IMG/VR virus record: IMGVR_UViG_3300002514_000296
Coordinates: 1 to 22,316 of that record
From: a virus
Reading direction: 5' to 3' (one strand)
DNA: 22,316 nucleotides
Below, piece by piece: positions 1-21,900 of the stretch; positions within the stretch are counted from its first letter, which is position 1, and every line of letters starts with the position of its first letter. The notes beneath the pieces were generated by a model, which was not told where the DNA came from, did not search any database, and was given only the letters and a program-made list of their open reading frames with translations. Both the position numbers and the translations under genes were made by a program.

Positions 1-21
1 CTGGAGGAGTTATTAGAGTTT

Positions 22-4220: not shown

Positions 4221-4616
4221 ATGATTGGGTACTCACCAAAATTTCCACTACAATTTGATAATTATGTGGGGGCATATGCGCTTACCCAAACTTTGAAAGA
4301 GGTGGTAAAACAAAATTTTATTAATTTGATGTTAACATCACCCGGGGAAAGGATAATGGATATAAATTTTGGCGTAGGACTTAGAAATTATTTATTCGAA
4401 CAGAATACCTCACAACTAAAATCTAAAATAGCCGCCGATGTTCGATACCAGACTAGTAAATATATGCCCTTTATAAGTCTGGATACTATAAATTTTAGTA
4501 AAAGTCAGGGGACAGATGGCTATGACGATCAGATTTTAAATGTCTCAATTCATTATTCAGTATCTTCGATGAACATACTCGATAGTATATCGATTGGAAC
4601 AGGGGGCGACTCGTAG
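4221..4616 (+). CDS. T4 gp25-like / GPW-family baseplate wedge protein
   Basis: This 131-residue protein matches the gp25/GPW family in length (T4 gp25 is about 132 residues) and in its signature. After an N-terminal SPKFPLQFD segment, a helix (about residues 16-36) leads into LTSPGERIMDINFGVGLRNY at about residues 39-58. That is the family hallmark of a Thr/Ser-Pro-Gly-Glu-Arg turn, a hydrophobic/Phe-Gly step and a Leu-Arg pair. In contractile tails gp25 sits in the wedge core next to gp6 and gp53 and helps start sheath assembly, because it resembles the sheath C-terminal domain. The position directly before a gp6-like gene supports this. The ATG follows a weak AAAAGG tract. The acidic/Gly end GTGGDS is followed by a TAG inside the next gene's ribosome binding site. 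The assignment is made by reading motifs, not by a search. Confidence 0.93.
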   Translation: MIGYSPKFPLQFDNYVGAYALTQTLKEVVKQNFINLMLTSPGERIMDINFGVGLRNYLFEQNTSQLKSKIAADVRYQTSKYMPFISLDTINFSKSQGTDGYDDQILNVSIHYSVSSMNILDSISIGTGGDS

Positions 4617-4626
4617 GAAACATATT
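4614..4626 (+). promoter_or_regulatory. Ribosome binding site deciding the gp6-like start
   Basis: AGGA at 4615-4618 overlaps the TAG stop of the gp25-like gene and lies 8 nt before the ATG at 4627. This is the best-spaced Shine-Dalgarno-like site in the window. It favours the ATG at 4627 over the in-frame TTG at 4594, which would overlap the gp25-like gene by 23 nt and add 11 residues with no family resemblance. Confidence 0.7.
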
Positions 4627-6444
4627 ATGGCGAATGATAGATCAAATAATAGCAAAAAAAGTATAAAAGTAATAAACTATTCGGGCCGTGACTTTGGTTC
4701 TATTCGCAATAATTTATTGGATTATGTAAAACGGTACTATCCCGATTCTTACCAAGATTTTAATTCGGCTGGGTTTGGGTCTCTTGTATTGGATACCGTA
4801 TCTTATGTGGGTGATGTCCTCTCGTTTTATATGGATTATCAACTAAACGAGACATTTTTAGCGACGGCCACAGAATATGATAATGTTGTTAAGATAGCGC
4901 GCCAGATGGGGTATAAATACGCAACTTCGTTTTCTTCTGTAGGACAAGTAGAGTTTTTTGTGTCGGTGCCAGCCTCCACGGCCGGCGCGCCAAATGAAGA
5001 TTATATACCATTATTACAAGCTAATTCTCGAATCACTTCATTAGGGGGCCAAAATTTTACTCTCGTAGATGATGTTAATTTTGCCGACCCGAATAATCAA
5101 ATTATTGTAAGCAAGATAAACACCACGACAGGCGCGCCCACTGAATTCGCTATAAAAGCGGCGGGCACTGTTATATCAGGCCGCCTCGGCCGGCAAACCG
5201 AAACAATATCCGATTTTGTAAAGTTTAGAAAAATAGATCTGGATGATCCGGATCTGGTAGAGATATTGAATGTATATGATTCCGAGGGCCATCGATATTA
5301 CCAAGTAGATCATTTGGCCCAGGAAATTGTTTTTAAAGCAATTAGAAACAATAATGCAGACAAAAACCTTGTGCCGTCCATTTTGAAGGCCATCCCGGTC
5401 ACAAGAAGGTTTACGCTGGAAAGAAAACCAGGCGAAGCGTATTTACAATTTGGATATGGATCCGAAGCAGAACTTACAAATGAATCTGTAATAGATCCTA
5501 GTAAAATTCTTCTCAAGTTGCATGGTAGAGATTATACAACTCAACAAGAGTTTGACCCAACTAACCTTACCGAAACCGATAAATTTGGTGTCGGACCATC
5601 AAACACAACCTTGACAATTGTATATAGGGTCAATGATGCGAGCGACGTTAATGCAGCCAGAGGGACGTTGACACAAGTGTCTGCACCATTGTTAAAGTTT
5701 AATTCTTTACAAAATCTCGATTCGACGATCGTTCAAGGAGTTAGAGATTCCATAGAGTCTACGAACGAAAATCCAATTGTCGGGGATATTTCGATCCCTA
5801 ATGCAGATGAACTGAAACAAAGAGTATATTCGCACTATGCCACACAGAATCGTGCCGTTACAATAGAAGATTACAAAGCAATTACTTATGCAATGCCTCC
5901 AAGCTTCGGCGCGATTACAAGATGTTCCTTTGAAAGAGATTTTGATTCTTTTAAGAGAAATCTAAACATGTATGTTATATCGAAGAACAAGGATGGCTTT
6001 CTTGCTGCAACCAATCAAACTCTTAAAAAAAATATAAAGACATGGCTATCAACATATAAAATGATTAATGACACTATCGACATTCGAGACGCTAATGTGG
6101 TTAATTTTGGTATTAATTTTTCTGTAGTGGCAGATTATGAAGAAAATAAGTATAATGTGGTAAATCTGGCCACCCAGAGACTGAGAAATTATTTTATAAA
6201 TCAACAATATGACATTGCTGAAGCCATCTATGTGGTAGACATTTATAAAGAGCTACAAAGAGTTCCGGGTGTTGTCGATGTAGTAGACGTACGAATTTTG
6301 CACAGACAAGGGGGCGTCTATTCTGAGACGTCTTTCGATTTTAATTCTAGTTTATCCGTCGACGGCCGATATCTTAACGGGAAGATAGATATGATATTTG
6401 AATTAAAGTATCCAAATAGCGATATTGAAGGAACCGTTACCTAA
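4627..6444 (+). CDS. T4 gp6-like baseplate wedge protein (baseplate J-like)
   Basis: At 605 residues this is close to T4 gp6 (about 660). The N-terminal segment INYSGRDFGSIRNNLLDYV (residues 16-34), the following YPDSYQDF and GSLVLDTVSYVGDVLSFYMD segments, and the helix NETFLATATEYDNVVKIARQ are typical of the gp6/baseplate J-like wedge fold. The C-terminal part has the family pattern VTIEDYKAITYAMPPSFGAI near residues 411-431, followed by a two-layer alpha/beta region (LNMYVISKN, then helices and VVDVRILHRQGG). In contractile tails gp6 dimers form the ring at the heart of the baseplate and transmit the trigger for sheath contraction. The start chosen is ATG 4627, with AGGA 8 nt upstream; a longer form from TTG 4594 is possible but less likely. 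The gene ends in a 1-nt TAATG overlap with the next gene, which suggests coupled translation. Confidence 0.92.
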   Translation: MANDRSNNSKKSIKVINYSGRDFGSIRNNLLDYVKRYYPDSYQDFNSAGFGSLVLDTVSYVGDVLSFYMDYQLNETFLATATEYDNVVKIARQMGYKYATSFSSVGQVEFFVSVPASTAGAPNEDYIPLLQANSRITSLGGQNFTLVDDVNFADPNNQIIVSKINTTTGAPTEFAIKAAGTVISGRLGRQTETISDFVKFRKIDLDDPDLVEILNVYDSEGHRYYQVDHLAQEIVFKAIRNNNADKNLVPSILKAIPVTRRFTLERKPGEAYLQFGYGSEAELTNESVIDPSKILLKLHGRDYTTQQEFDPTNLTETDKFGVGPSNTTLTIVYRVNDASDVNAARGTLTQVSAPLLKFNSLQNLDSTIVQGVRDSIESTNENPIVGDISIPNADELKQRVYSHYATQNRAVTIEDYKAITYAMPPSFGAITRCSFERDFDSFKRNLNMYVISKNKDGFLAATNQTLKKNIKTWLSTYKMINDTIDIRDANVVNFGINFSVVADYEENKYNVVNLATQRLRNYFINQQYDIAEAIYVVDIYKELQRVPGVVDVVDVRILHRQGGVYSETSFDFNSSLSVDGRYLNGKIDMIFELKYPNSDIEGTVT

Positions 6445-6446
6445 TG
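6442..6446 (+). promoter_or_regulatory. TAATG stop-start overlap (translational coupling)
   Basis: The TAA stop of the gp6-like gene (6442-6444) shares its last A with the ATG of the next gene (6444-6446). An AAGGA tract at 6428-6432 lies 11 nt upstream. The arrangement is a classic re-initiation junction and suggests that the two products are made in linked amounts. Confidence 0.7.
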
Positions 6447-7961
6447 GCCATCCTGAGATATACAGCGAGTATTGATAACACAATAACAAACGCATTTCAG
6501 TCCGATTTGACTACCCGCGGCACAGGCTCAAATATGGGCTATGCTGACTCTTTAGAGGTATTTTCAATTTATGGCCAGACCTCCGGGTCAACGCTCGGCC
6601 GCTCCCAAGAAGTGTCCCGAATCCTTATGCAGTTTCCTATAACTAGCATCAGTACTGATCGAACTGCTAACACTATTCCGGCCTCCGGTAGTGTGTCTTT
6701 TTACCTTCGTATGTTTAATGCAGAAACCCCCTTTACACTACCTCAGGATTTTACACTAACTATAGCCCCCTTATCTCAATCATGGACAGAGGGCACCGGC
6801 TTAGATATGGATGAGTATAAAGACTTAGGGTCTTCTAATTGGCTCTCGGCCAGCACGACGGCTAAGTGGGATTCTGTTGGGGGGGATTATTTAACAGCTT
6901 CAAATTATAAGGCTACTTTCCCACAGGGCTATGAAGACCTTGAAATAGATATAACCAATCTAGTCGAACTATGGATCAAGGGCGCCGCTTCGGGCGGTCA
7001 TGATAATTATGGTGTGGGAGTACACCTCACAGCCAGTCAAGAGGCGTATCACTCTAACTCCTCGGGCGCAAATTCCGGAAGCCTTATCCAAAACCTTGTT
7101 GGTTCGACTGACTCTTATTATACTAAAAAGTTTTTCGCCCGGTCCACACAATATTTCTTTAGTCGCCCTGTTTTAGAGGCTCGGTGGGACTCTAGGGTTC
7201 AAGATGATAGGGAAAACTTCTATTATTCTAGTTCATTAGCTCCGGCTGCAGATAACTTGAATACGCTTTATCTGTATAATTATATTCGAGGGCGTCTTAC
7301 AAATATCCCCGCTGTGGGGACAAGTAACATTTTAGTTTCATTGTATTCGGGATCGTCCGCTCCAACTGGTTCTAAGCTCTTGCTTTATAATGGCGCTACT
7401 AACATTACAGGTGGCCATGTTTCAACCGGTATATACTCAGCCTCAATTGCGGTTACGGGAACATCGGCTACGACTGCTGCTCCATCTGCTATTTTTGATT
7501 TGTGGCACTCAGGCGCCGTAGAATATTTTACAGGCTCCATTTATCCTGAATTAATGCCTACCTATGAGTCCGCCCCGACCTTTGATAGAATAACGTCGTG
7601 CCGAAATTTAAAGAAATCTTATTCACGACAAGACAAATCAAGATTTAGATTTTTTGTTCGGTCGCGTGACTGGAGCCCCACTCTTTATGCGGTCGCAACC
7701 GCCAACAATCCAACGGAGGTTATAACGAGCGCGTCCTATGCAATTTATCGAAAAACCGACAACTATGCAGCTATTCCGTATAGTACAGGTTCAGATTATG
7801 GCACTTATTTGTCATATGATCAGAAGGGGAATTATTTTGACCTAGATATGTCCATGTTAGAGGGAGGCTATATGTACGAGATTAAACTATCCTATTATAA
7901 TGATAGTATAGGAGACTGGCAGGAGCAGCCCCAAACATTTAAATTTCGGGTTGAAGAATAA
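6444..7961 (+). CDS. Structural protein with DNRLRE/CBM-like N-terminal domain
   Basis: This 505-residue protein lies between the gp6-like wedge gene and the giant tail protein. Residues about 8-235 read like a DNRLRE (CBM96-related) beta-sandwich: a DNTITNAF opening, LEVFSIYG near 38, the strand SRILMQFPITSI near 57-69, a predicted SVSFYLRMFNAE strand, then QSWTEGTGLDMDEYKD near 111-127 and a DLEIDITNLVELWIKG segment. The tryptophan-threonine-glutamate-glycine step and the 'strand-Asn-Leu-Val' ending are typical of that family. Residues about 245-500 form a second, beta-rich part ending in GNYFDLDMSMLEGGYMYEIK (462-481), then WQEQPQTFKFRVEE at the C-terminus. I remember that end pattern from uncultivated marine phage proteins but cannot check it. 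It has no catalytic motif and no signal peptide. A virion surface or baseplate-periphery role with possible glycan binding is inferred from domain type and location. Confidence 0.72.
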   Translation: MAILRYTASIDNTITNAFQSDLTTRGTGSNMGYADSLEVFSIYGQTSGSTLGRSQEVSRILMQFPITSISTDRTANTIPASGSVSFYLRMFNAETPFTLPQDFTLTIAPLSQSWTEGTGLDMDEYKDLGSSNWLSASTTAKWDSVGGDYLTASNYKATFPQGYEDLEIDITNLVELWIKGAASGGHDNYGVGVHLTASQEAYHSNSSGANSGSLIQNLVGSTDSYYTKKFFARSTQYFFSRPVLEARWDSRVQDDRENFYYSSSLAPAADNLNTLYLYNYIRGRLTNIPAVGTSNILVSLYSGSSAPTGSKLLLYNGATNITGGHVSTGIYSASIAVTGTSATTAAPSAIFDLWHSGAVEYFTGSIYPELMPTYESAPTFDRITSCRNLKKSYSRQDKSRFRFFVRSRDWSPTLYAVATANNPTEVITSASYAIYRKTDNYAAIPYSTGSDYGTYLSYDQKGNYFDLDMSMLEGGYMYEIKLSYYNDSIGDWQEQPQTFKFRVEE

Positions 7962-7968
7962 TTAAAAT

Positions 7969-10900
7969 ATGAGTCTTAAGGGATTATTTGATAGTGTCGC
8001 TGTAACAAAAGTAGTTGACAACAAAACATCGGAAGAAATCGGCAGGGTTGTCGAGTCGGCTGACTACCATGAAGCTGATATCATCGATGAGAAGAGATTT
8101 ATTCCTTCTATTGATTTCTCAGATCCCAAAAATTTTGCTAAATATGGTTCAGCAGAAAAGTATTACGAGGACTCTTATACATATATTCATTCATCTTATC
8201 CATATGATGGTTCTTTGGCAGAGAAACTACAGTGGAAGAATAGTGGATCTTACATTGATCTTTATACATTCGAAAATAAATATCCACGCACCAATGGGTA
8301 CATTAATTTTTCATATGGAGGCTGGGGCTCTCCCGGCACCGCTCCTGCGTGGCCGGGTACCGCTGGATACGGCACACCCCAGACGTCTGATTTAGAATAT
8401 ATTAGTTTGAACGGAGGCCCGGGCCTAGGCGGAGGCATACAGAGTCAGTCCGCAAACGTTTGGAACCCTACCAATAATCGAGAATCTAATTTAGAGGCTG
8501 ACCTTGCTGAAGGGGTGACAATTGAATTTTGGCTGAAAAAGGACGCCTTTACCACAACCAATACTGAAAAAGAAGTGGTCCTTGATTTGTGGAACAACGA
8601 ACTCAGCAGTTCGGATAGCTACGGGCGCCTGCGTCTAGAGGTAACAGGCGCCGCAGGGATAGATTCCAACTGGCTCCTGACCATAATGTCGGGGACGAAC
8701 GGGGTGCAATGGCAAACGCTGGGCAACACAGGCCTATCATCTTTGACGGATGGCAACTGGCATCATTATGCCTTTAGTTTATTATCTGCTTCGGCCGGAA
8801 TAACTGCCAAATCGTATACAGATGGAGTCCCTCAAAAAGAAGAAACTTTGGGATCCACAGGGATTAATAAAATAAGGGGCCCGATGCAGGCTCAGCTCGG
8901 TGCCTTAATGACATCAGTCTCGGGGAATATTTATCACGGCCTCCATATGACGGGATCCGGAAAACTATCAGCATCGCTTGATGAGTTTAGGTATTGGAAG
9001 ACACAGAGGAGTTCAGAAAAAGTAGGAAGGTATTGGTTTACTCAGGTGGGCGGTGGCACCAATACCGATTTAGCTAATACTGATTTGGGAGTCTATTATA
9101 AGTTTAATGAAGGCATCACTCAAACTGCCTCTGTAGATTCAGTTATTTTAGATTATTCCGGCCGCGTTACGAATGGAACTTGGACTGGTTATACGGCCGG
9201 CGCCCGTAATACTGGCTCTGCTATAGTGTCGGCTAGCGCAGCAGCCACAGAATTTTTGGACCCCATTGTATACCCTACACATCCGGATGTGATTTCTACT
9301 TTAGCGAGTCTAAAAGCCTCGGGCTCAGTTCATGATATCGAAAATCCTTCGGAGTTATTTGGATTTTTTCCCTCCTGGATGCAGGATCAAGACCCAGCAC
9401 ACGGAGATGAGCTAAAAAAACTAACTCAAATAATATCAAGCTATTTAGATACCCTATACCTTCAGATAGAAAGCTTTGGAAACATTCATGATATAACTTA
9501 TTTGAGTGGTTCGGCTACTAAGGCAAACACACTAACAGAACAACTGCTGTCTTCAAAGGGCCTGCTAGCACCTGAATTATTCCTCGACGCCGATATCTTT
9601 GAAAAGCTAGGTGACAGAAGTGAAGAAAGGGAGTATAGAGATTCACTTACTAATATAAAAAATAAGATTTATCAAAATATCTACAATAATCTTATAAATA
9701 TCTATAAAACTAAGGGCACTCGACAATCTTTTCGTAATGTATTAAGATGTTTCGGCGTCGATGAAAAGCTCTATAAACTAAATGTTTATGGAGACAATGT
9801 ACAGTTTAAGATAAGAAACAACAGGGAACTTTACTCCGCCAATAAGCGCTATATAAATTTCAGTGTTAATACAAATTTTGAGTCTACCGTATATTTGTTT
9901 TCTAATGATGCAAATTCTGTTTCTTATCTTTCTTCTTCAAGTGAACTAACATCGGGTTATGCCTCTACACTGGAAACATACGTCTTCTTTCCAAAAAAGC
10001 CAGAGGCTTATGAAAAAGCATATAGTGATTATCAATATAACTATTTAACATCATCCTTGTTTGGTCAGCACACTGTTAGAAAAACTAACCCAAATTCCCT
10101 TACATGGGATACTCCGGATAGTACTAATTTTCAAGTTTATGCGGTAAGAGATAGCATTGGCTCAAAAGACGCGAAGTTTGTCCTTACTAGTAGTGCCGGC
10201 GGGGTTATAACCTCCCCTCTGTCAACATCATTTTATGACGATGTATACCTTAATACTAACTGGATATTTGGTGTTACCATTAAGCCAGCCCAATATCCGC
10301 TAGTTAACCACATTTACGGGACTAAGACTTCCGATTATATTATTGAATTTAAAGGGACACAGGTGGCCGCTGGTGAGGTTTTAGATTCGTTTATAGTTAC
10401 TGGGTCCATTGATGCTTCGCAAGCCGGCTACGGCTTTATAACAGGGTCTAAGAGGCCTTATATCGGTGCTCATCGCCAGGACTATCAAGGCACTCTCCTT
10501 AATAGATCTGATGTACGCGTGGGCTTTTGTAGATATTGGCTTGACGACATTACACTTGACTTATTAGAAGTCCATGGTCGCGACATACAAAACTACGGGA
10601 CGAAAGAACCAACCCGGCCCCCGTATTTGTTCCAAAACAACCAAACGATAAATTCTGAGTTTTTAGAAATAGATACTTTGGCTCTTAACTGGGATTTTGA
10701 GACGGTAACTGGATCGGACGCGTCCGGAGAATTTACTGTTCCTGATTTCTCCTCTGGGTCGACTCTGGCCCAAGCCACCCAGTATGGAGCGTTGGGAAAT
10801 CTACTTGCCGCACAACATACAGGGTATGGATATGGGTTCCCAGTAAGCTCAACTGCGTCTATTGATGCCGATTACGTTTTGACCTCAGAGTTGCTAGATT

Positions 10901-13900
10901 TTGAAAGGCTTAATTCTAGCGATATGATTTCGATATTGAGTACTCAAGATGATATAGAATTTACAAGAGAATCACGACCGATTAATTTCCTTTATGCAAT
11001 TGAAAAAAGCATGTATCAGTCTATTTCTGAAAATATGATTCGTATGTTTGGCGTTATTACTGATTTTAATAATATTATTGGGAACCCGGCTAATAAATAC
11101 CGCGATACATATAAAGGTCTTCGAATCTTGCGAGAGAGGTTCTTTGAACGCGTAGGCAACACCCCCGATTTAGACAAATATATTGAATTTTATAAATGGT
11201 TTGATTCATCCCTCAGTAGAATTTTAGAACAACTAATCCCTGCCGGCGCCGAGTTTTCTAAAGAAATCAGAAATATAATCGAAAGTCATATGCTGGAGCG
11301 CAGCAAGTACCAACATAAATTTCCAACCATGGAATTAAAAGATCCTATTCTTGTCGGAACAGTTTTGTCACCACTTCCTTTAAGTCCAGGCTGGCAGTAT
11401 ACTCATCATCCAATAAATGATAAAGAAAATACAAACGCAAATTATTGGAAATCTTTGGCCTCTCGGGACAAGGGCAAGTTAGCAACAAGTGATACTGTGG
11501 TTAATAACAATAAACAAATTTATTTTGATAACTCTACCAAAGAAAGGCGTACGCGCAAGCGACACCTTCTGCATCGATTTTTAGGAAATCGGAAAAAACA
11601 TATTCGCGCCGGCATTACTACACACGATAATAAAATAGAAAACTTTGTTTTTGATGCCACGGCTCCCTACGGTCCCGTGGTACCAGGCACCAATATCCCC
11701 CAGAATATTATGCTCAGCTTTAATGCTGATGTAGAGAAACTCCAGAATATAGCCGATGATCTCGCACCAGGAAAGAAAAAAAGACTCGGCTTTGGAATTG
11801 ATCCAACGATTAATATCACCCCGGGTAAGCTTAAGCAAGATGGAAACGTATTAGCGCCATTTAGTCTTTATAGTTCGTCCGTTACAAATGGGTACAACTC
11901 AGAAGTTGTTAACTTTTATACAGCCAGCATATTGTTAACCAATTTGCACGAAGATATTGTGCACACCAACGAAACACGACCACTTCAGGGCCCCTTTACG
12001 GAGAAATTTGTGGGAGGACGTCAGTATCGCCATACCGAATTGAATAGTGGTTCTCTCGACACTCGCGATGATCGTGCCGAAGGGTTTAGAGTTGAATTAG
12101 GGTTGCTTCCAGTTTCTCCTGGCGCTCTCGGTATCGTGCCCCCTAACTATCCCTTTGGAAACTCTCCATCCGGCTCGGCCCCCTTGGGATTTCTTGCGCA
12201 TCTCCCCACAGCCCAAAGGCTAAGAGACGAAGGCGCAAAACGATCAGTTAACATTAAAAATATTTTGATGACGACTGCTTCCGTAGGTGTCCGGCTTTCT
12301 GGCACACTGATTCATAATAAGATTGGAAATTATAGTAAAAATTATCAAGTTGTTCAATCATCCGGCCGAACCCTCAACGATCCGTTCTTCCAAGATCAAT
12401 CGTTCGACTTTGCGTTGTATCCTGAGACAGTCTTTGGTAGAACTCGACACCCTATGGAGCTACAGAGGGTAACAAACACGAAATCTGTGTACTTTGACGG
12501 TATTAATGATTATTTATCTTCGTCAGTGGGCGCAGCAGCTTGGAATGATATAATAGGCGGCGCCGGCAGCTTAGCAAAAGCTTTTACTTTTTCAGCTTGG
12601 GTTCGTCCAGTTTCAATGACGGATAACTACCCTCGAATCATCGACTTCGGCGGGGGAGCCTTCCCCGACCGCGCACTGGCCTTTTACGGAAGCGCTTATC
12701 CCGCAACCGCACAGATTTATCTTAACAGCGGCCAAGCCATGAGATCTTCGGCGGCTTCTATAGTCGCCGATAACTGGGTACATATTGTTGGCACATATGC
12801 AGGAGGCTCTTCTGGCGATATCAACATATATGTCAATGGTGTAAAAGACAACGCCACCCATACAGACCTCCCCGATACGACCGACATCAGCTCACATCTT
12901 TCGATTGGTGCTGATGCAGATGGTACTGACGATGAATTTAATGGCTATGTTAATGATGCCGCTATCTGGTCCAGGGAGCTTACTGAATCAGAGGTTACAA
13001 CATTATATAATAACGGCTATCAGCCAGACTTGAAGGCTATTGCTGCTTTAAATCGTGGGCTTGTTTCCTGGTATCGAATGGGCGACGGCGACGACGACAC
13101 TAATACAACAATTTACGATCAAATGGGGTTTGCGAATTTAACAGCTGTGAACGGACCCACAATTCAGTCCAGTGCTCCGAGCCCCATCGTTGAGAGTTCT
13201 CTAAACTACGCTCTTCCCGATCGCACAGGCGCCAACTCCAACCAGTCTATTATCGTCAACAGGTTTAACGCTCCTGGCAGCTATGAAGTCTCATCGCGAG
13301 GTTATATGGACCCGGCCCACGAAGAAAAATCAGTTTATAGTGTTTTGCCCTATCGTAATTTGTCTGTTTTGAATTTTGGAACAATTGTGTCTTCCTCTAA
13401 TGATAATTCTGTTGCTTTTACAATGCATGTCGAGGACCAGTCGGTAGAGGGGGTCGACCGCGGCCTAAGGCAGCGCTTGGTTCCACACAATCGGCCATTT
13501 GGTTATGACGGGGCATATACAGCGTACCCGGCATATTATAAAGTTAATAGGAACCCGCGCGTAAGAGTGACAGACAGTGATGGAAACGAGGAGAAGGTTT
13601 ATGATAATTATTTTGTCCATCATCCGATCCCTCGTACTACGGCTCAATACTCTTGGATTAGTGCGTCGTGGGATGAGGCCAACTCTGCAACTTCTACCGC
13701 TCGGTGGGGATATAGTGAACTAAGTGGTGGGCTCTTTGTACCAAGTCTGCCTACAATTAGTGGAGCAGTTGATTTTGTATATGGAGATTTCTTAGGCTTA
13801 AACTCAGTAGTGGTAGATCCAATTCGTAGTCCAATAGTTACAGGCGGCAAGATCACCAGTCCAAACCCTTCTACTAGTGCCAATGCTTTGGGTCTGTCTG

Positions 13901-16900
13901 TCGCAGGTAGTACAGCCATCGCGGCCAACCTCCAGCTATCGACATACTATAATTCGCTCATGAATTTGGGTTTGATCGACAAGCCTCCTCGCGATAATTT
14001 TGTAAATGTGCTGAATCTTCTTCTCTTAGGTCGTAGTGGTCCCTATGGGTACCCAAGTTGGAAACAGATAAGGACCGAAGAACATCCTGTTGTTCGGAAC
14101 CAGGAAAAAAATAGTATACTTTCTATACGAACTAAAACCTCAACTGACGTTAGAATCGGCGCCTCCCGAGGCAACGCATTAACACAATTTATAGAACCAC
14201 AAGTGTATGCCTCAGAGTTTCCAATGATACATGAGTTTAACATGGGAAGCTCCCTCCAATCGGGGCGCTCCGCCGGAAGGCCGATCCGGCTAGCCCTAAA
14301 AAATTCATATGGAAATAAGCTTATAAATTTCGCTAATTATGAAGTAAATAATATTCTTAATGTTGCAGGAAATTATGACTCGGGAGATCTTTATTTTAAT
14401 CGAATTAATTCAATGATTCTTGAAGGACAAAATAACGATAGCGCACTTAAGTCAGCATTATCTAAGGTAAGTGTTACGTATGCTCAGGCTGTTTATCCTG
14501 CGACATATAATGCTTTCCTAGGAAGAACAAGAGGCAGAAAATACTATACTATTTCGAACATCTGGAATAATAAGAGATCAATGAGGTCCTTTCGACCTCA
14601 GACAAACTCGCAAGGAACACTGATATCCGCAGCAACGCCTCCTTATGGAATGTCGAAGCAGCCTAGTGTTTGGCCCGTCGACGGCCACTTAGATTATTCG
14701 AGTTCTGTGAGCTGGACCGAGGATGATGGTGCCGGTGAACTTCAGAATTCATATTCAAGATATAGGGTTCATTACGGCGGTAGTGGTAAGCATAGTGATC
14801 TAATGATCATTCCTGCGGCCACTTACAATGCTAGAGTGCCGCACGGCGAGGTATCAGCCTCTTCGGGCGTCGGCGTTAGGGTCGCATTCCCGGGGGATCG
14901 TTACAACTTGGTGGCCGGCTCATTTTCCGGAACGCTAGGCACCGCCGGCTCTGGGAAAAGCCCTTACAAGTCTTATGAAGATTACGCAAAATATATGAGG
15001 CTTATAGGAAAAGATTATTCTATTGTTCCGGAATTTAGAATAAGCGAGCACATAGCTGAATTTCTTACAGGAGACGATTTTGCAACTCTAACAAGCATCG
15101 ACGATCTTTTAAGCCTCACTGGCTCGGCCTATGTAAACTCTTCAGAGTCCGGTTTTTATAAAGAATACGCTAATTCCGACTTCATGAAAATGTTTAGTGT
15201 TGTAAACAATGCATATCACGGCGCCGAGTTGGTGGACGGCTCAAAGATGTCCCAAGATAAAATTGGCCTCCGCTGTACAGCGCTGGTACAATTTTTGCCA
15301 TACAAGGGATTTTATCCGGCTGAGCGCACTGTTCAACTGGCCTCCTTATTTTCTCAGTCGTTTGGGGACGAGATATACGTAAGCGCATCGGGTAGAGCAC
15401 AAAGCGCTTGTTATCGAGCAATTCTAGAGCCATTATACTCTCAAGGTATAATGTATAACACAATTAAATCGGGAATTGCGGTCAGCAACTTTATAATTTC
15501 CAACACCTCAAGTGTGGAAAGCCCAATATTTCCAATGGCATATCAATGGGCTACTGGCGCCATCGGCGGCTCGACGCGCATCGTTGGCAACTTGAAAGGG
15601 CCCAGTTCCGGTCTCTCGGCATCGTGTGTTTATAACAATTATAACTCATCCCTCCCAGAGGGTAACCTGTTTTTTAGGCAGATGCTTCCCCCCTGGTCCT
15701 CAACCAACGGCGCCGCATCGAGCTCTTATTTGAACGAGAACGGTTATTTCCACCGAAAGATACCATTTGAGGCTTTGTACAAACCACGCAATTATCTTTC
15801 CCAAGATTATATTTCATATACTGGTAGAATTTATGATACTGGCCTGAGTTCCGCTAGTTTAAATACAATCGCGCCCACCTCGGACACATCTAACTGGCTT
15901 ACATGGAACGGCGAAGGTGATTCTCGTTATGAATTGGCGATTGATAATTTCTTATGTGAAACAGTTAATTTCTTTCAAAATGGCCTAACCTCAATCCTTT
16001 CCGATAGAGAGGAGAACTTCCGAGCGGCCCAGAGCGGCTCTGTATATACAATGAAATTAAAACTGTATAGACCCACAACAATCAGCCCTGGTTATGATTG
16101 GGCTAACACCGGCGCTCTTATACCCGATCATGCTAAATTTGATATGTATCGAAGAATCTCAGCTTTTGGTCCTCCGATGGCCGCGAAGTCTTGGGACGCA
16201 ATGGCCTTTTTTGCGGGTAGTGCGTCTTATGGCACGAGTTTCTCACACCTTACCCCGCCTTATTATGCAGGCTCTGGGTCTTGTACCTTTACTTTTACGG
16301 CTACCTATGATGGCGCCCCCAGCTTGGACGAGATCTTCGTCGGAACGAGCTTAGTTTACGACAGAATGGAAACGGTCGAACTCCAGAACGGCAACCAACC
16401 CATGGCCGACTATAAAGTTCAAATGTATGACAGTTTCAATTTAACCGAATCGGTTGCCTCTGTCCCGGCAAACTCTAGAACTCAAAAGAAGCAATGGCTC
16501 ATTCAGTCTAAATTCGAAACTCCAGTCATCAATATCGCCGGCGACCGGAGAACCTGTGTTAGCGGTGGGTACCTCGGACAGGAGGCAACAGGCGGCCTCT
16601 TCGTCGTCGGGACAACGACCACCGACGACACGTTTAATTTTACCGGTTCCTCTGGAACAGTATATGATTTCATTATAACGGGCTCTTACGATGGGACTAC
16701 AGATCCGATACAAGTAGAGAGAGTCTCGAGCACTTCATCGATGGCCCTGAATATCCATGGTGCTATTACGGCCTCTGACTTCGTTCAGGTCGATGGCGGT
16801 ATTGCGACTATATACCCGGTCGCGCCGCATATTGTCGTCTTGACCCAAAGCGCTGTTGGAACTGCTGGTAATACGCATATCGCAGAATATTCCGGTGAAA

Positions 16901-17862
16901 TGACAGCCATCGGCTTCGGCGGCGGCGAGGATGCCATCGCCGACGACCCATGTGGAGATATTTATGGTAGTATTCCAATCGCTAGTGCGCCTGATACAAT
17001 ATTCCCAGCGGCATCAATAAACATGACCGGCACCCTCGGGAATACCATCACACCCAATTCGGAACTCTTTACACAAGGTTTATGGCACGATTACGGTTCT
17101 ATTCCAACTGGCTCTGACGAAGGGGTTTTTGCTATAATCGAATCACCCTCCCCGAAGATTGGGAAATCATTAGCCGAGCTAGTTGGGATGCCGATCGGAC
17201 AGCCCTTCCGGATCGGAGCAATTAAGCCGCGCGCTATACTTGAAGAGGCGGTCGTAGCAGTTCCTTTCTTTGTTGGGGGAGATAGCCGGAGAAAGTTTTA
17301 TAAGCTCGACAGCTTATCGAAAAACTCTGTTAAGAAGCTCAGTCGGCACATGAAGAAATATATTTTCCCACCGCGGTTCGATTTTGTTCTTAACGAGGAA
17401 ATGGACCCTGTGGCCATGTATGTCTTTGAATTTAGTCGTCAAATAGGTCAACAAGATATCGCTGACATGTGGCAGAACCTGCCTCCATCTATCCACGAGA
17501 CGTTCGAGCAGAAAGTATCAATTATAGAACACAAGCTGTTACGAGACCAGATGTTGAATAAAGAGAATCGTAAGTTACGAAAGGATCTGCGTTGGCTTGT
17601 ATTTAAGGTAAAGAAGCGTGCAGAGACAGACTATAGTAGATTTACCAAGAAAGGGCTCGTCTCTGACCTAGAAACGATCCCCAGCAATATAGGAAATGCT
17701 AAATATTCGTATAATTGGCCGTATGATTATTTCTCTCTTGTAGAACTAGTTAAAATTGACGAAGCTATTGAATATGATTCACAACTACCTCCTGATAGCA
17801 GAGTTGCGATTGTGGGAGAAGTTAATATTGAAGAAGAGCCCGTTTTTGACGAATTGGAATAG
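7969..17862 (+). CDS. Giant modular baseplate/tail protein with LamG domains (3297 aa)
   Basis: One unbroken frame of 3297 residues. In order: an N-terminal Tyr-rich segment (1-140); a LamG/concanavalin A-like domain (about 141-405); a helical segment with the P2 gpI/T4 gp7-like pattern IYKTKGTRQSFRNVLRCFG (465-612); a diverged LamG-like beta-sandwich (about 690-880); a long helical part (1005-1125) ending in RNIIESHMLERSKYQHKFPT; a backbone region with LQGPFTEKFVGGRQYRH near 1340; a second, clearer LamG domain (about 1505-1690); a long beta-rich region with FVHHPIPRTTAQYSWI near 1882; a GC-rich compact module (about 2862-2990); and a helical, charged C-terminus (3150-3297). It follows the gp25- and gp6-like genes, where T4 carries gp7, so a wedge role is inferred, with LamG domains displayed outside for binding. 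T4 gp7 is about 1032 residues, so this is about three times larger. Its start has only a weak GAAGAA tract 10 nt upstream. Domain limits are approximate. Confidence 0.8.
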   Translation: MSLKGLFDSVAVTKVVDNKTSEEIGRVVESADYHEADIIDEKRFIPSIDFSDPKNFAKYGSAEKYYEDSYTYIHSSYPYDGSLAEKLQWKNSGSYIDLYTFENKYPRTNGYINFSYGGWGSPGTAPAWPGTAGYGTPQTSDLEYISLNGGPGLGGGIQSQSANVWNPTNNRESNLEADLAEGVTIEFWLKKDAFTTTNTEKEVVLDLWNNELSSSDSYGRLRLEVTGAAGIDSNWLLTIMSGTNGVQWQTLGNTGLSSLTDGNWHHYAFSLLSASAGITAKSYTDGVPQKEETLGSTGINKIRGPMQAQLGALMTSVSGNIYHGLHMTGSGKLSASLDEFRYWKTQRSSEKVGRYWFTQVGGGTNTDLANTDLGVYYKFNEGITQTASVDSVILDYSGRVTNGTWTGYTAGARNTGSAIVSASAAATEFLDPIVYPTHPDVISTLASLKASGSVHDIENPSELFGFFPSWMQDQDPAHGDELKKLTQIISSYLDTLYLQIESFGNIHDITYLSGSATKANTLTEQLLSSKGLLAPELFLDADIFEKLGDRSEEREYRDSLTNIKNKIYQNIYNNLINIYKTKGTRQSFRNVLRCFGVDEKLYKLNVYGDNVQFKIRNNRELYSANKRYINFSVNTNFESTVYLFSNDANSVSYLSSSSELTSGYASTLETYVFFPKKPEAYEKAYSDYQYNYLTSSLFGQHTVRKTNPNSLTWDTPDSTNFQVYAVRDSIGSKDAKFVLTSSAGGVITSPLSTSFYDDVYLNTNWIFGVTIKPAQYPLVNHIYGTKTSDYIIEFKGTQVAAGEVLDSFIVTGSIDASQAGYGFITGSKRPYIGAHRQDYQGTLLNRSDVRVGFCRYWLDDITLDLLEVHGRDIQNYGTKEPTRPPYLFQNNQTINSEFLEIDTLALNWDFETVTGSDASGEFTVPDFSSGSTLAQATQYGALGNLLAAQHTGYGYGFPVSSTASIDADYVLTSELLDFERLNSSDMISILSTQDDIEFTRESRPINFLYAIEKSMYQSISENMIRMFGVITDFNNIIGNPANKYRDTYKGLRILRERFFERVGNTPDLDKYIEFYKWFDSSLSRILEQLIPAGAEFSKEIRNIIESHMLERSKYQHKFPTMELKDPILVGTVLSPLPLSPGWQYTHHPINDKENTNANYWKSLASRDKGKLATSDTVVNNNKQIYFDNSTKERRTRKRHLLHRFLGNRKKHIRAGITTHDNKIENFVFDATAPYGPVVPGTNIPQNIMLSFNADVEKLQNIADDLAPGKKKRLGFGIDPTINITPGKLKQDGNVLAPFSLYSSSVTNGYNSEVVNFYTASILLTNLHEDIVHTNETRPLQGPFTEKFVGGRQYRHTELNSGSLDTRDDRAEGFRVELGLLPVSPGALGIVPPNYPFGNSPSGSAPLGFLAHLPTAQRLRDEGAKRSVNIKNILMTTASVGVRLSGTLIHNKIGNYSKNYQVVQSSGRTLNDPFFQDQSFDFALYPETVFGRTRHPMELQRVTNTKSVYFDGINDYLSSSVGAAAWNDIIGGAGSLAKAFTFSAWVRPVSMTDNYPRIIDFGGGAFPDRALAFYGSAYPATAQIYLNSGQAMRSSAASIVADNWVHIVGTYAGGSSGDINIYVNGVKDNATHTDLPDTTDISSHLSIGADADGTDDEFNGYVNDAAIWSRELTESEVTTLYNNGYQPDLKAIAALNRGLVSWYRMGDGDDDTNTTIYDQMGFANLTAVNGPTIQSSAPSPIVESSLNYALPDRTGANSNQSIIVNRFNAPGSYEVSSRGYMDPAHEEKSVYSVLPYRNLSVLNFGTIVSSSNDNSVAFTMHVEDQSVEGVDRGLRQRLVPHNRPFGYDGAYTAYPAYYKVNRNPRVRVTDSDGNEEKVYDNYFVHHPIPRTTAQYSWISASWDEANSATSTARWGYSELSGGLFVPSLPTISGAVDFVYGDFLGLNSVVVDPIRSPIVTGGKITSPNPSTSANALGLSVAGSTAIAANLQLSTYYNSLMNLGLIDKPPRDNFVNVLNLLLLGRSGPYGYPSWKQIRTEEHPVVRNQEKNSILSIRTKTSTDVRIGASRGNALTQFIEPQVYASEFPMIHEFNMGSSLQSGRSAGRPIRLALKNSYGNKLINFANYEVNNILNVAGNYDSGDLYFNRINSMILEGQNNDSALKSALSKVSVTYAQAVYPATYNAFLGRTRGRKYYTISNIWNNKRSMRSFRPQTNSQGTLISAATPPYGMSKQPSVWPVDGHLDYSSSVSWTEDDGAGELQNSYSRYRVHYGGSGKHSDLMIIPAATYNARVPHGEVSASSGVGVRVAFPGDRYNLVAGSFSGTLGTAGSGKSPYKSYEDYAKYMRLIGKDYSIVPEFRISEHIAEFLTGDDFATLTSIDDLLSLTGSAYVNSSESGFYKEYANSDFMKMFSVVNNAYHGAELVDGSKMSQDKIGLRCTALVQFLPYKGFYPAERTVQLASLFSQSFGDEIYVSASGRAQSACYRAILEPLYSQGIMYNTIKSGIAVSNFIISNTSSVESPIFPMAYQWATGAIGGSTRIVGNLKGPSSGLSASCVYNNYNSSLPEGNLFFRQMLPPWSSTNGAASSSYLNENGYFHRKIPFEALYKPRNYLSQDYISYTGRIYDTGLSSASLNTIAPTSDTSNWLTWNGEGDSRYELAIDNFLCETVNFFQNGLTSILSDREENFRAAQSGSVYTMKLKLYRPTTISPGYDWANTGALIPDHAKFDMYRRISAFGPPMAAKSWDAMAFFAGSASYGTSFSHLTPPYYAGSGSCTFTFTATYDGAPSLDEIFVGTSLVYDRMETVELQNGNQPMADYKVQMYDSFNLTESVASVPANSRTQKKQWLIQSKFETPVINIAGDRRTCVSGGYLGQEATGGLFVVGTTTTDDTFNFTGSSGTVYDFIITGSYDGTTDPIQVERVSSTSSMALNIHGAITASDFVQVDGGIATIYPVAPHIVVLTQSAVGTAGNTHIAEYSGEMTAIGFGGGEDAIADDPCGDIYGSIPIASAPDTIFPAASINMTGTLGNTITPNSELFTQGLWHDYGSIPTGSDEGVFAIIESPSPKIGKSLAELVGMPIGQPFRIGAIKPRAILEEAVVAVPFFVGGDSRRKFYKLDSLSKNSVKKLSRHMKKYIFPPRFDFVLNEEMDPVAMYVFEFSRQIGQQDIADMWQNLPPSIHETFEQKVSIIEHKLLRDQMLNKENRKLRKDLRWLVFKVKKRAETDYSRFTKKGLVSDLETIPSNIGNAKYSYNWPYDYFSLVELVKIDEAIEYDSQLPPDSRVAIVGEVNIEEEPVFDELE
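8389..9183 (+). other. LamG/concanavalin A-like domain 1 of the giant protein
   Basis: Residues about 141-405 start with YISLNGGPGL and carry the LamG_3-type order: VTIEFWLKKD, a DLWNNE strand, RLRLEV, then DGNWHHYAFSLL, a YTDGVPQKE turn, LGALMTS, and LDEFRYWKTQRSSEKV, finishing with LGVYYKFNEG and ILDYSGRVTNGTW. The phrases 'DGNWHHYA', 'LDEFRYWK' and 'YYKFNEG...D.SG' are the family's usual landmarks. Such domains commonly bind glycans or proteins. No binding partner can be read from the sequence. Confidence 0.82.
9361..9804 (+). other. P2 gpI / T4 gp7-like baseplate segment of the giant protein
   Basis: Residues about 465-612 form a helical segment: FPSWMQDQDP, a LKKLTQIISSYLDTLYLQIE helix, then LTEQLLSSKGL and NLINIYKTKGTRQSFRNVLR followed by CFGVDEKLYKLNVYG. 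The 'lengthy helix, then Lys-Gly-Thr-Arg, then a short helix and Phe-Gly' arrangement resembles tail proteins of the P2 gpI type, which correspond to part of T4 gp7. The match is from memory of the motif and is moderate evidence. Confidence 0.55.
12481..13032 (+). other. LamG domain 2 of the giant protein, apparently inserted
   Basis: Residues about 1505-1688 are a textbook LamG_3 domain: KSVYFDGINDYLSSS, AFTFSAWVRPVSMTDNYPRI, a DFGGG turn, ADNWVHIVGTYAGGSSGDIN, IYVNGVKDNATH, SHLSIGADADGT, then FNGYVNDAAIWSRELTESEV and TLYNNG, followed by LVSWYRMGDGDDDTNTTIYD. It is more canonical than domain 1. It is more GC-rich than the neighbouring backbone, and the text on both sides reads like one continuous conserved region, so an insertion is inferred. 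Confidence 0.88.
16552..16938 (+). other. Compact GC-rich module within the giant protein
   Basis: Residues about 2862-2990 form a short Thr/Gly/Ser-rich beta module. It runs from a GLFVVGTTTTDDTFNFTGSS strand pair through YDFIITGSYDGTTDPIQVER to VVLTQSAVGTAGNTHIAEYS and ends in IGFGGGEDA. The 'TFNF...SSTSSMALNIHGAI...LTQS..GTAGNT...F.GG' pattern resembles a small repeat-type domain I remember from phage structural proteins. By hand count the first 60 bases after 16561 are about two-thirds G+C, and the module stays near half G+C, against roughly 30% in sampled backbone stretches. Confidence 0.55.
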
Positions 17863-17869
17863 ATAATCG

Positions 17870-18976
17870 ATGCAGTTTTTTGATGATAAACAAGATGTAA
17901 TGGACGTGGTTATAACTCCGTTCGGGAAGCACCTATTATCACAGGGGCGCTTCAGTCCAGAGTACTATGCATTTTTTGATGATGATATCATGTATGACTC
18001 CGCCTGGGTGACGGGATCGACAATTGTAGAGACACAAAATAATATAGAAGGAAGGATCCAGCACGAAACACCAAGGATTAAACAGCCCTCGGTTTATATT
18101 GGTGTTGAAACGGCCATTAATATAAGAAATCAGGCAATTAGTGGGGCCATCTCGAACATGCCTCATGATAGTGGTAGTTATATGGCACAGGATACGAACA
18201 ATCATAAAATTTATAATCAAGAAAGCCTTCAGTTTCATGGAGACAAATTTGATTTTTTGAAACAACCTCTAGGGCGCTCTGACCAAAGTTCTAAATATTT
18301 ACCAGCTTGGAATATTTCAATGTTGAGGGGAGCAATCACCAGTAGTCAGAATTATCTGGAGCTGCCGCAATCAGCTAGCCGCGGCACCCCGGGCTTCATA
18401 GAAAATATCCCACAGCTTAATATCAACCTTAATTACAAAGTGTACGTTAGTGAAGTCGAAAGCGAGCATCAATGGACGACTGATAATATTACAGTTGATT
18501 ATGGAAGCACTACATTTCCTATTCCTGATCTGAGTACCATTGCGGACCCAGATGTTGGAGATGTGTTCCCCCCTGGTCTTGTTCAGAGCATAGCCTCCGA
18601 GGTTTTCAGTGATGGTACATACTTTTCCCTTCAAAACGGAAAAATAATTTTAGAGATTGTAGAAGAAAATGTTAACTTTAAAAAAGAGAATTTTGATATT
18701 CAAGTTTTTGTGTCCTCTTCAGCGTCTCCTGGGGACAACGCAAGCGGGCTGCAGCAATTGTTTTTTACTAATGATGTATATAATTTACAGGTAGACGATT
18801 CGGAGAGGTATTTATCCATTAGGGTGGATAAAGGCATCGATGATGCTAGAATTAGTAATATGTCAATAGGCCACGCTTCGTCACTTACCACGGATAGTGC
18901 AACAACAAACGTGATTAGTACTAGAGAATTTATGGTTAGAGATCTCTACAGTCCCGAAGAGGATATTTGTGAATAA
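17870..18976 (+). CDS. Unknown virion structural protein (368 aa)
   Basis: I do not recognise a family. The N-terminal 50 residues have a distinctive look: MQFFDDKQDVMDVVITPFG, then LSQGRFSPEYYAFFDDDIMY, with repeated Phe-Asp-Asp clusters. The middle (about 140-300) is polar and probably beta-rich with no membrane segment. The C-terminal part has YLSIRVDKGIDDARI and ends with Cys-Glu. The gene follows the giant protein by 7 nt, with a weak GGAA tract 10 nt upstream of the ATG, and overlaps the next gene by 1 nt. I remember a similar N-terminus in uncultivated marine phages, again without a function. It is probably a baseplate or tail accessory, as inferred from operon position only. It could instead be an assembly factor. 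Confidence 0.72.
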   Translation: MQFFDDKQDVMDVVITPFGKHLLSQGRFSPEYYAFFDDDIMYDSAWVTGSTIVETQNNIEGRIQHETPRIKQPSVYIGVETAINIRNQAISGAISNMPHDSGSYMAQDTNNHKIYNQESLQFHGDKFDFLKQPLGRSDQSSKYLPAWNISMLRGAITSSQNYLELPQSASRGTPGFIENIPQLNINLNYKVYVSEVESEHQWTTDNITVDYGSTTFPIPDLSTIADPDVGDVFPPGLVQSIASEVFSDGTYFSLQNGKIILEIVEENVNFKKENFDIQVFVSSSASPGDNASGLQQLFFTNDVYNLQVDDSERYLSIRVDKGIDDARISNMSIGHASSLTTDSATTNVISTREFMVRDLYSPEEDICE

Positions 18977-18978
18977 TG
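18974..18978 (+). promoter_or_regulatory. TAATG stop-start overlap (translational coupling)
   Basis: The TAA of the 368-residue protein gene shares its last A with the ATG at 18976. An AGAGGA tract at 18958-18963 lies 12 nt upstream. This is the second junction of this kind in the window and suggests that these two unknown products are made together. Confidence 0.7.
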
Positions 18979-21900
18979 AAACGTTCTGTAAAATTTGGTA
19001 GGGAAGCCACAAACATTAACAAAGTTATCGTTAATCAAATTCCGGGCGCCTACAAGTTAGAAACAACAATGCAGGTCCTCTCGAGCCCAAACAATTCAGT
19101 GTCCTCTAACTTAAATAAAAGTACTTTTATTCTTGCGTCGGCCGACCAATCAATAACACGTCGCATCGTGCAGAATAACAATAATATTCTTCCTTACTTA
19201 ACAAAACAAGCACAGAGCAACAATGTCGTATTTAGTAAAACAAGTCTTGGGCTTAGAATTGGGCCTCTTGCAAAAAAAGTATCTTCTAAAACTCCAAAAA
19301 AAGCATATGTTAGAACTATAACTATTCAAAAAAATGATATTTCAAATCTAACTATATTTGCCGGCGTCGTAACTAGCCGACAGCGACGTAAGGGGGAAGT
19401 TTACTCTCTTTCTTCTATGGATACTCTTGTGGTCCTTCAAGAGGGAGCCCCCCTTGAAAATAACATTCTTCTATTCGAAGATGAATCAAAACAAAAAATA
19501 TGGGCCGGCCCGGCATTCCAAAATAGTTTGGGACATTGGTATAAAAAATTATCTGGACCTTTAACTGAAAATAGTCGCCTGTACTCGAAGGTAGTACCGA
19601 ACACAAAAGTCATTTTTCAAAGTGAACTACACGAGAACTTATTTAAAACTATTACCAATACATTTAGTAATCTTTATAATATCAACAAAGGTATAAATTC
19701 CAAGCAGGCCATTGTTAATAATCTTAAAACTCAAACAAGAAATTATTTTTCTTCTCTGTCCTATGCAAAAAATTCAAACGGCGAAGTTCCAATATCTTTC
19801 TCTTTTAATAGGCTAGACTTTCTTAGAAATAATGGTGCATTCTCAAAGCTAATAAAAAATGAAAGCGAGATGATGAATTCGTTTGAGTTATTGTCCACTA
19901 AAATATCTCGCAAACGAATTATTAGGAATAACCCCACCAACCGGCTGACCGGGCACGGCCCGGCCAAGCCTTTTGATGGTCGCGAATACCCGCTCCGAGG
20001 CAACCTTTCCTACCATAATCTGTTTCCCACACAGGACGTGTTAGTGGTGATGTCTAAAGACACAGAGATGAAAAATATTACAGACGGAATTTATTCATAT
20101 GGTGTTGAATTTACTTTTTTGGATAACACACATGAAAAATTATTAAATGTTTTAAATGAGCCCACTGTGGGGCTTAAAATCATTGCTAAAAAAGTACAAG
20201 ATTTATTCGAAGGGATGCAGCGATCGGGAAACTATGATGTTTATACTCAATCATTTTCAGATGCATATATTAAGAAATACGAGTTCGATAATAAGCAAAC
20301 TATAATAACGGGCGCTATTAGTAGTTATATAAGTGCGATATCGCTGTTTCATAAAGATCTAGCAAAAGCAATTAAGTTAACCCCCAATAGTTTAGCAACA
20401 AAATTGTTCATATTAGCGGATCCTCTTGTCAATGGGCCCTCTGGGCCATTAAATTTGTTAAATCTCGTGCTAGACTTAGCAAAGCAGATAAATCTTAAAA
20501 TTAAGATGAGCTCCCCAGTCCCAGCCGGCGCTGCGGCTGTTTTACAGATGCAGACGTCTAAGCTGGGCTCCGGGGCACGATTAATTAAAATTAAGCATTA
20601 TTTTGATGAATTCGTAGATGTGAACGATATTGGCGTTGCCGGATTTGACTACTTAACCCCGTATTTAGAGACGGGCACCCCAGAATTTTTTAACCCCTTC
20701 AGACAATTAACTTATCAACAAGTACAAAATTTGCGAACTAACGAAATAGAAAAGTATGATAATTTAGCCTTTACTGGGCCACTCTCTTTGACTCCGAATT
20801 ATTTTAACATATCAGGGAAATCACACAAAATCAACTCTAACGATCCCGACCAGGAAGAAACGAATTCGATAGTGGCTACCAGTCTGTTAGTTGCTAACAA
20901 ATTTCGTAATTCTCCGCTCGATTTTAATCAGTTTAACGTTAATGACGATACTACTGGTAACGCGTCCGGCCTCCTCTCTATTATAAAAAATAATCTTAAA
21001 GTGATAGAAAAAGAAAATTGTAGTATATCAATAAATCTTCACGACGACGACACCGGTATTTTCCGATCGCTCCCATCACCAGTGTATCCCGCAAGCGGCA
21101 GGGACTATCTTGACGCTGCTGAAAAAATGTCCGAGCCATCGCCCTTTGTTATAAACAAAACTGGTAGCGTATCAGTCAATAATTTTATTTTAAACTCAAC
21201 AAACAATATTTCACAAGAGGGCTATTACAGTCAAATTAAACAGCTCAACAACGGCCTCTTATCATATTTGGTCCAAACTGATTATTTTGTAGACTCCCAA
21301 CAGGTGCATGTTGGGGAAGTTAAGAACATTACGGACCAACAGGTATTTAGTTCCAACAATGTGAATATTCAAACATTCAATCTTAGAGCACTAGAAATAC
21401 AGCGAAACAATCTAAACTCTGCCGCGTCAACGATGAATTCCGTGTTGCTTAATCAAAAGCCCGCGGAACAAGTACTCTCACAAGAACTTAGTTATGCACA
21501 ATATATCTCTACACCCATTTCTGCTTCGGATATAACATCTACAGCGCTAAAATATGGTAATATTAAGAAAATTCAATATTTAGCCGGCTATAGAAAGTTA
21601 AATGATTCTGTTATAATGAAAGATCCCATCTGGCTGGACCTCACAGAGACCAGTTTAAATAATTTTTCGGAGACGGGAAAGACTCTTTTATGTAGAATGG
21701 CCGAATCGTATACAGAATTTGCTAGGTATAAGGGAATTAAATCTTCCCTTTACGATGAAATCTTCCTGGTGTCCCCCTCGTACGCGGCAACTGCAGAGAA
21801 TACAGTTGGCGACTCCGCATTTTCTTTACTTCCGGAAAGCAATTTTACATTTTTAAACAATATGGCTGATACTAATAGCTCCGACCTTAATTATTCCATG

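Follow-up and report, generated by a model that had tools for sequence, protein, structure and literature searches.

Baseplate wedges are usually regarded as a conserved machine and tail fibres as the variable sensors. Conserved baseplate proteins that bear modules are known from siphophages, in which evolved Dit/baseplate proteins carry inserted carbohydrate-binding modules; those proteins belong to non-contractile tails, and their backbone is unrelated to that of the protein described here. In phage T4 the wedge initiator gp7 is encoded after gp6. Two minimal chains without modules are P2 gpI (176 aa) and gp32 of phage A-1(L), the latter being the third wedge chain in a (gp31)2-gp32 heterotrimer (PMC10966104). 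For LamG domains in baseplate wedges, no relevant paper was found in the open literature searched. Below we describe a giant protein, encoded in a wedge operon, that combines a two-part helical core with LamG domains and exchangeable modules. A previous sequence-only reading of the same DNA had noted that T4 gp7 is about a third of its size, which agrees with the lengths of 1,032 and 3,297 aa.

A conserved wedge operon in T4-like viruses

The analysed DNA, called the window throughout, is a virus fragment of 22.3 kb from IMG/VR. A single scan yielded 36 loci; 30 of the sequences, the window included, are full length. The genes of the window that belong to the operon are:

4221..4616, + strand: gp25/gpW-like wedge (sheath initiator) gene (Pfam GPW_gp25, E 4.6e-14)
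4594..6444, + strand: gp6/gpJ-like wedge gene, 616 aa (phrog_219 'baseplate wedge subunit', 3.3e-17)
6444..7961, + strand: orf505, a 505-aa gene between gp6 and the giant (present in 36 of 36 loci)
7969..17862, + strand: putative giant baseplate protein, 3,297 aa (ORF, ATG start, homologous ORFs in relatives)
17870..18976, + strand: orf368, a 368-aa gene 3' of the giant (present in 32 loci)

The giant ORF opens with ATG and has zero internal stops, and uninterrupted homologous ORFs are found in the 29 other full-length relatives, which bears out the uninterrupted 9.9 kb frame reported earlier. It had also been stated that this frame directly follows gp25- and gp6-like genes. Both genes were indeed identified by Pfam and PHROG, but orf505 separates gp6 from the giant, which thus occupies the wedge-operon position after gp6/gpJ with one conserved gene intervening. 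The gp6-like protein also matches TIGR02243 (baseplate assembly, 1.8e-10) and, compared end to end, has 32% identity with the protein that is annotated as a wedge protein in Flavobacterium phage immuto. Of the 36 loci in the family scan, 35 have a gp25 gene beside the giant, and the order gp25-gp6-orf505-giant-orf368 is kept in nearly all of the relatives' loci.

The two smaller genes are shared with cultured phages as well. The product of orf505 is homologous to a 386-aa protein of Microcystis phage Mel-JY01 (E 1e-15) and to immuto gp111 (E 2e-9), and the N-terminal 47 residues of the orf368 product match a 211-aa protein of Mel-JY01 that itself lies 3' of the giant's homologue. Neither of the two matched T4 gp53, gp8, gp9, gp10 or gp11. 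Since the Mel-JY01 version of orf505 has a sub-threshold CBM96 match (5.5e-5), orf505 may encode a further binding component of the wedge operon. Beyond these genes the window holds ORFs of 1,390 aa and 1,085 aa (within 1-4173 and 18976-22233, respectively) without a family match; because they are seen in only 17 and 18 relatives, the flanks of the operon appear to vary more than the wedge genes.

The 30 full-length sequences are collinear and range from 2,782 to 4,098 aa. In IMG/VR, a profile of residues 440-1165 detected no fewer than 449 stretches that encode the protein, and the same profile gave six matches in bacterial or archaeal genome contigs, all of them MAGs. One locus, a wedge-operon fragment in the 2.85-Mb 'chromosome' of a candidate division WOR-3 MAG (L116; CP070664.1, 579848-602070), was dropped as evidence because its gene breaks off suddenly with unrelated genes around it, as in a chimeric assembly. 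The T4-type major capsid protein gp23 is found in seven of the eight large family contigs, and six of the eight have a match to a tail sheath protein; the family is therefore placed among the T4-like myoviruses. The source of the window is an uncultured, probably marine T4-like virus.

Domain layout of the giant protein

The layout that follows from the family alignment, the profile comparisons and the structure models is, in the order of the window:

8290..9258, + strand: LamG1, residues ~108-430, universal (Pfam matches in relatives, structure model)
9286..9804, + strand: first core half, helical with the KGT motif, residues ~440-612 (homology to immuto gp109 and Mel-JY01 WWT39511)
9805..10893, + strand: LamG3-like insert between the core halves, residues ~613-975 (model, alignment)
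10906..11343, + strand: second core half, a helical module, residues ~980-1125 (profile comparison)
11461..12468, + strand: universal backbone block, residues ~1165-1500 (family alignment)
12499..13203, + strand: LamG2 cassette, residues ~1511-1745, at variable site 1497-1760 (Pfam, family alignment)
13219..16518, + strand: C-terminal backbone, residues ~1751-2850, with further insertion sites (family alignment)
16531..17073, + strand: compact GC-rich 'FGG' module at variable site 2850-3035 (GC, profile comparison)
17074..17838, + strand: conserved C-terminal block, residues ~3036-3290 (family alignment)

The two clear LamG domains of the earlier reading are both recovered. LamG2 matches Pfam Laminin_G_3 (4.2e-28; 98.8 bits for the whole protein against a curated cut-off of 27.6), with its best stretch at residues 1536-1676. 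LamG1 is identified by Pfam matches in the first thirds of 20 of 27 relatives and by a structure model, with a pLDDT of ~75-89 over most of its length, that matches carbohydrate-binding and pentraxin/LamG folds; the best fold match is 4dqa, a putative carbohydrate-binding protein (Z 19.5, rmsd 3.0, 208 aligned). A third, diverged LamG-like part had also been proposed. The model of LamG3 (~613-975) is a confident beta-sandwich, which allows tandem LG4-5 structures to be aligned with the model across its residues 109-957, but there is no sequence match to LamG profiles, so that the part is a candidate LamG by its predicted fold and is not called by sequence. LamG/pentraxin-type folds, as modelled for LamG1, suggest that the modules may bind glycans. 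The GC-rich module is likewise present, with a local GC of 0.49-0.50 against ~0.43 around it.

The helical core and its possible relation to gp7 and gpI

Residues 440-1140 are homologous to the proteins that hold the corresponding operon position in immuto and Mel-JY01: the family profile aligns (hhalign) with immuto gp109 at E 3e-12 and with the Mel-JY01 family at E 7e-20, and the reversed-profile decoys for both comparisons stay at background. These proteins, immuto gp109 (1,265 aa) and Mel-JY01 WWT39511 (1,336 aa), are both annotated as 'hypothetical'. They share with the giant the place after gp6 and the orf505 homologue as well as the two-part core, whereas LamG1 and the 2,100-residue C-terminal half are absent from them. 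The immuto operon reads gp25-gp6-orf505-homologue, with one extra 112-aa gene, and in Mel-JY01 the same order around the homologue is found with one extra gene of 413 aa.

The core alignment consists of two conserved helical halves. A K-G-T motif, inside residues ~576-594 of the window protein, is invariant in the first; the second has the motifs '[IL]P..' and 'ER.K' (residues ~1085-1115). The segments at 465-612 and 1005-1125, which had been singled out as gp7/gpI-like, coincide with these two halves; T4 gp7 and P2 gpI themselves escape recognition by sequence. Only a short stretch links the halves in 15 immuto-type relatives, so that gp109 differs further from the giant in having no LamG between them, whereas the Mel-JY01 relatives and the window family carry a LamG-like domain at this point. 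The window and Mel-JY01 inserts are related (P 2e-5). Judged by the alignment, the immuto-type junction is the natural empty site for the LamG3-like part.

T4 gp7 itself, used as control, strongly matches the T4 gp7 Pfam and PHROG models. No Pfam Gp7 domain (Gp7_helical, Gp7_5th, Gp7_6th) and no gp7 PHROG (phrog_964) matches the window protein, and by these profiles the giant is outside the Pfam/PHROG family of T4 gp7. When the window core is aligned with T4 gp7, the best alignment lies at the KGT helix (T4 ~732-751) in both analyses, non-significantly in each; a gp7 family profile reaches P 0.009 there. When gp7 alone was compared with the window-core profile against all of T4, it gave P 0.18 and ranked 56 among 195 T4 ORFs. 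P2 gpI ranked 10 among 75 P2 ORFs, without a sequence match to the giant, and no hit came from HMM searches in which the core and C-terminal profiles were run against PDB sequences. T4 gp7 is like the giant in its place after gp6, in a KGT-type helix at the equivalent position (by the non-significant alignment) and, in Pfam terms, in an extra domain (V) that also comes after this helix. The giant differs in its unrecognised sequence, in the absence of Pfam Gp7 domains, in being three times longer and in its lectin-type modules.

Structure prediction followed by a fold search had been recommended as a check, and its outcome is suggestive. The AlphaFold2 model of the compact immuto core is poor (pLDDT 47.7, pTM 0.34), and for this reason the fold matches serve only as a hint. 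With this model, the two best of 350,542 PDB chains in Foldseek were contractile-baseplate chains (E 0.28 and 0.50, singly non-significant), and the five best after realignment were all contractile-baseplate chains, one of them a T4-type gp7. They are 8kea_c, a 190-aa chain of phage A-1(L) that is its putative gp32 (Z 8.2, rmsd 10.0, 163 aligned); 9gtp_A from a Streptomyces CIS (Z 6.0); 9f4a_A0 (Z 4.9, rmsd 3.4 A, 95 aligned, chain residues 701-898), from an entry with a 1,032-aa chain named gp7; 7yfz_C of phage Pam3 (Z 4.5); and 9euk_D of phi812 (Z 3.2); Z values so low may be chance for helical models, and the evidence lies in the concentration of baseplate chains. Among predicted viral structures, the matches to the same model were mostly unnamed large phage proteins. 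A 1,180-residue model of the window protein, in which the helical segments are poorly modelled, returned LamG matches only, because LamG fills the match list; this model-based result is compatible with a gp7/gpI core. A third wedge chain of the gp7/gpI type is thus the likely, though unproven, identity of the core, because the homology to immuto and Mel-JY01 is clear, T4 gp7 and P2 gpI are undetected by sequence, and the fold hint is of low confidence.

Two variants illustrate the architecture around the core. In one relative (L032:4375-11449) the giant is split into adjacent ORFs of 802 and 1,551 aa. Both frames contain stops, and an AGG precedes the second ATG by ~9 bases; the split lies at residues ~879/904 of the window protein, between LamG3 and the second core half. 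A contig in a Halobacteriovorax MAG (L121:4616-13120) has the whole operon with a complete version of 1,186 aa, which is without any C-terminal blocks and has a 2,361-aa ORF on its 3' side. As they are missing from this version, the C-terminal ~2,100 residues are probably a lineage add-on. A search for the C-terminal blocks gave nothing convincing in immuto, Mel-JY01, the cyanophage Syn1, T4 or L121, and a weak match of one block to T4 SegC (E 4e-4) was taken as chance.

Exchangeable modules at fixed sites

Alignment of the homologues from viral metagenomes, which had been advised for sorting universal from variable blocks, separated the two. Near-universal blocks comprise residues 1-1500, 1751-2850 and 3036-3290, and the length differences concentrate at a few sites, about seven of which are occupied by LamG, reelin-like or FGG modules. 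At ~250-271, inside LamG1, a nested LamG is found in L003, L010 and L027 (Pfam 1e-23 to 1e-24), and at ~1140 an FGG-type module in L016, L018 and L019 and a LamG in L031 (1e-14). The site at 1497-1760 holds a LamG in the window, in L036 (Pfam 2e-18) and, by similarity to the window LamG2, in L005, L010, L014 and L027; a reelin-subrepeat-like module in L016 and L018 (2e-4); and FGG in L028, L030, L033 and L037. In 14 relatives it is empty (24-34 aa); L003 and L004 are among these, and both are nearer to the window than L005 or L010 is. Further along, L027 has a LamG at ~1870 (8e-17); at ~1915-2000 there is a LamG in L010, L011, L027 and L036, a LamG with a reelin-like module in L015, and repeats matching phrog_5490 in L026; and at ~2568 L015 has a reelin-like module (1e-5). 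The site at 2850-3035 carries FGG in the window, L002, L003 and L004. The L010 insert at the same site is not an FGG module.

On a backbone tree built without the module columns (a quick tree, with some long branches and partly approximate labels), sites 250, 1140, 1497, 1915 and 2850 require at least 2, 2, 7, 5 and 2 changes of state, respectively; the counts are approximate because the L010 insert at 2850 is not FGG and the L011 insert at 1497 is without assignment. Modules across sites are as alike as modules within one site. The window LamG2, for instance, matches the LamG of L011 at site 1915 with E 3e-35, against ~2e-23 for the same-site LamG of the nearer L005 and L014, and the FGG module at 2850 matches those at 1497 (P 1.5e-8) and 1140 (P 4e-6), with decoys at background. 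The FGG module is also fast-changing, the window and L002 being 71% identical in the module and 97% in the backbone. An exchange may be visible in L016 and L019, which are nearly identical across the gene and differ at site 1497, where a 183-aa reelin-like cassette stands against a short alternative. Their mismatches cluster in the tract flanking this cassette, and replacement by homologous recombination therefore fits better than clean insertion.

The reading as a backbone with exchangeable modules is strong, and the evidence allows it to be put more firmly than it first was. The earlier picture of a conserved backbone with inserted binding domains stands in that modules come and go at fixed sites; LamG1 and LamG3, however, are universal in the family alignment, where they belong to the backbone and not to its variable part.

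Proposed role in the baseplate

We consider it likely that the giant is an enlarged third wedge chain, working in a gp7/gpI-like manner, with exchangeable lectin-type modules that would bind host glycans. In each of the six wedges, the core (~440-612 and ~980-1125) would join two copies of gp6 at the periphery and anchor the giant there, with the modules facing outward. The remainder would form a long scaffold, in which lectin-fold and other compact modules are held at fixed, tolerant sites. Cassettes would be gained, lost and exchanged, apparently through homologous recombination in their flanks, which would alter the outer surface of the baseplate and leave the core untouched. The modules would most likely bind host-surface or matrix glycans in adsorption. 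The role first proposed, a wedge component that displays surface-binding modules, accordingly keeps the support of the wedge-operon place and of the modules that come and go, and shares the unproven status of the gp7/gpI identity.

Rather unlikely is that the modules have a structural part, as spacers or contacts within a large outer baseplate (in place of T4 gp8, gp10 or gp11, for instance), and that their turnover is neutral drift at tolerant loops. The invariance of LamG1 and LamG3 in the backbone is what one expects of structural domains, and no gp8, gp10 or gp11 relative is present among the flanking genes compared. The variable domains, on the other hand, are lectin-type folds and reelin-like repeats, and the recurrence of module types at different sites, together with near-identical phages that differ by one module, looks like selection for surface variation. 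It is quite improbable that the giant is an adhesin of the tail-fibre or whisker type, encoded beside the wedge genes by coincidence and wedge-like in its helical attachment region only. Its great length, its many binding-type domains and a weak match to phrog_1419 'tail protein', which covers only LamG2, would suit an adhesin; the synteny with gp25-gp6 in essentially every relative, the gp7 position of the immuto and Mel-JY01 homologues and the baseplate chains among the fold matches of the (poorly modelled) immuto core all speak for the enlarged wedge chain instead.

The family places variable, sensor-like modules in a wedge-operon protein that is known from at least 449 stretches in IMG/VR and almost absent from cultured phage records, and the baseplate itself may help to grip the host. 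More tentatively, and with somewhat less than even confidence, one may picture a large, uncharted T4-like lineage that uses the enlarged wedge protein as a docking board, presumably in six copies per virion, with at least seven fixed sites for lectin-type, reelin-like and other cassettes. Recombination would exchange these cassettes, nested LamG domains included, between sites and between phages, so that host contact would be retuned in the baseplate and not only in the fibres. The idea is open to direct tests through the empty sites, the split form, the short form and the near-identical pair differing in one cassette. Giant proteins of cultured phages that are so far labelled 'hypothetical' could be named on the basis of this family.

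Giant proteins after gp6 in cyanophages

Prochlorococcus phage Syn1 encodes a hypothetical protein of 3,274 aa (Syn1_094; L126:17807-27631) after gp6, with a gp7-type KGT motif in its N-terminal part. That the giant is nothing new, being a member of a known giant gp7 family of cyanophage type (phrog_2885, with Syn1_094 as putative member), is very doubtful: the Syn1 ORF does lie directly 3' of gp6 with a KGT motif, and T4 gp7 matches phrog_2885 (4,179 positions) at E 1.3e-4, but neither the window nor its relatives match phrog_2885 or any other gp7 PHROG, the window profile against Syn1 reaches only P 0.001-0.004, at the KGT region, and a tblastn search of 50,697 phage records with residues 458-1164 and 1751-3297 returned one weak match only, to an uncultured huge phage. 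Syn1_094 is like the giant in its position after gp6, its size class and the KGT motif, and differs in having no significant sequence similarity to it outside the motif region. By its position and motif Syn1_094 is probably an unrecognised giant gp7. The size of the giant is ordinary for marine T4-like phages, as cyanophages too have a giant ORF after gp6.
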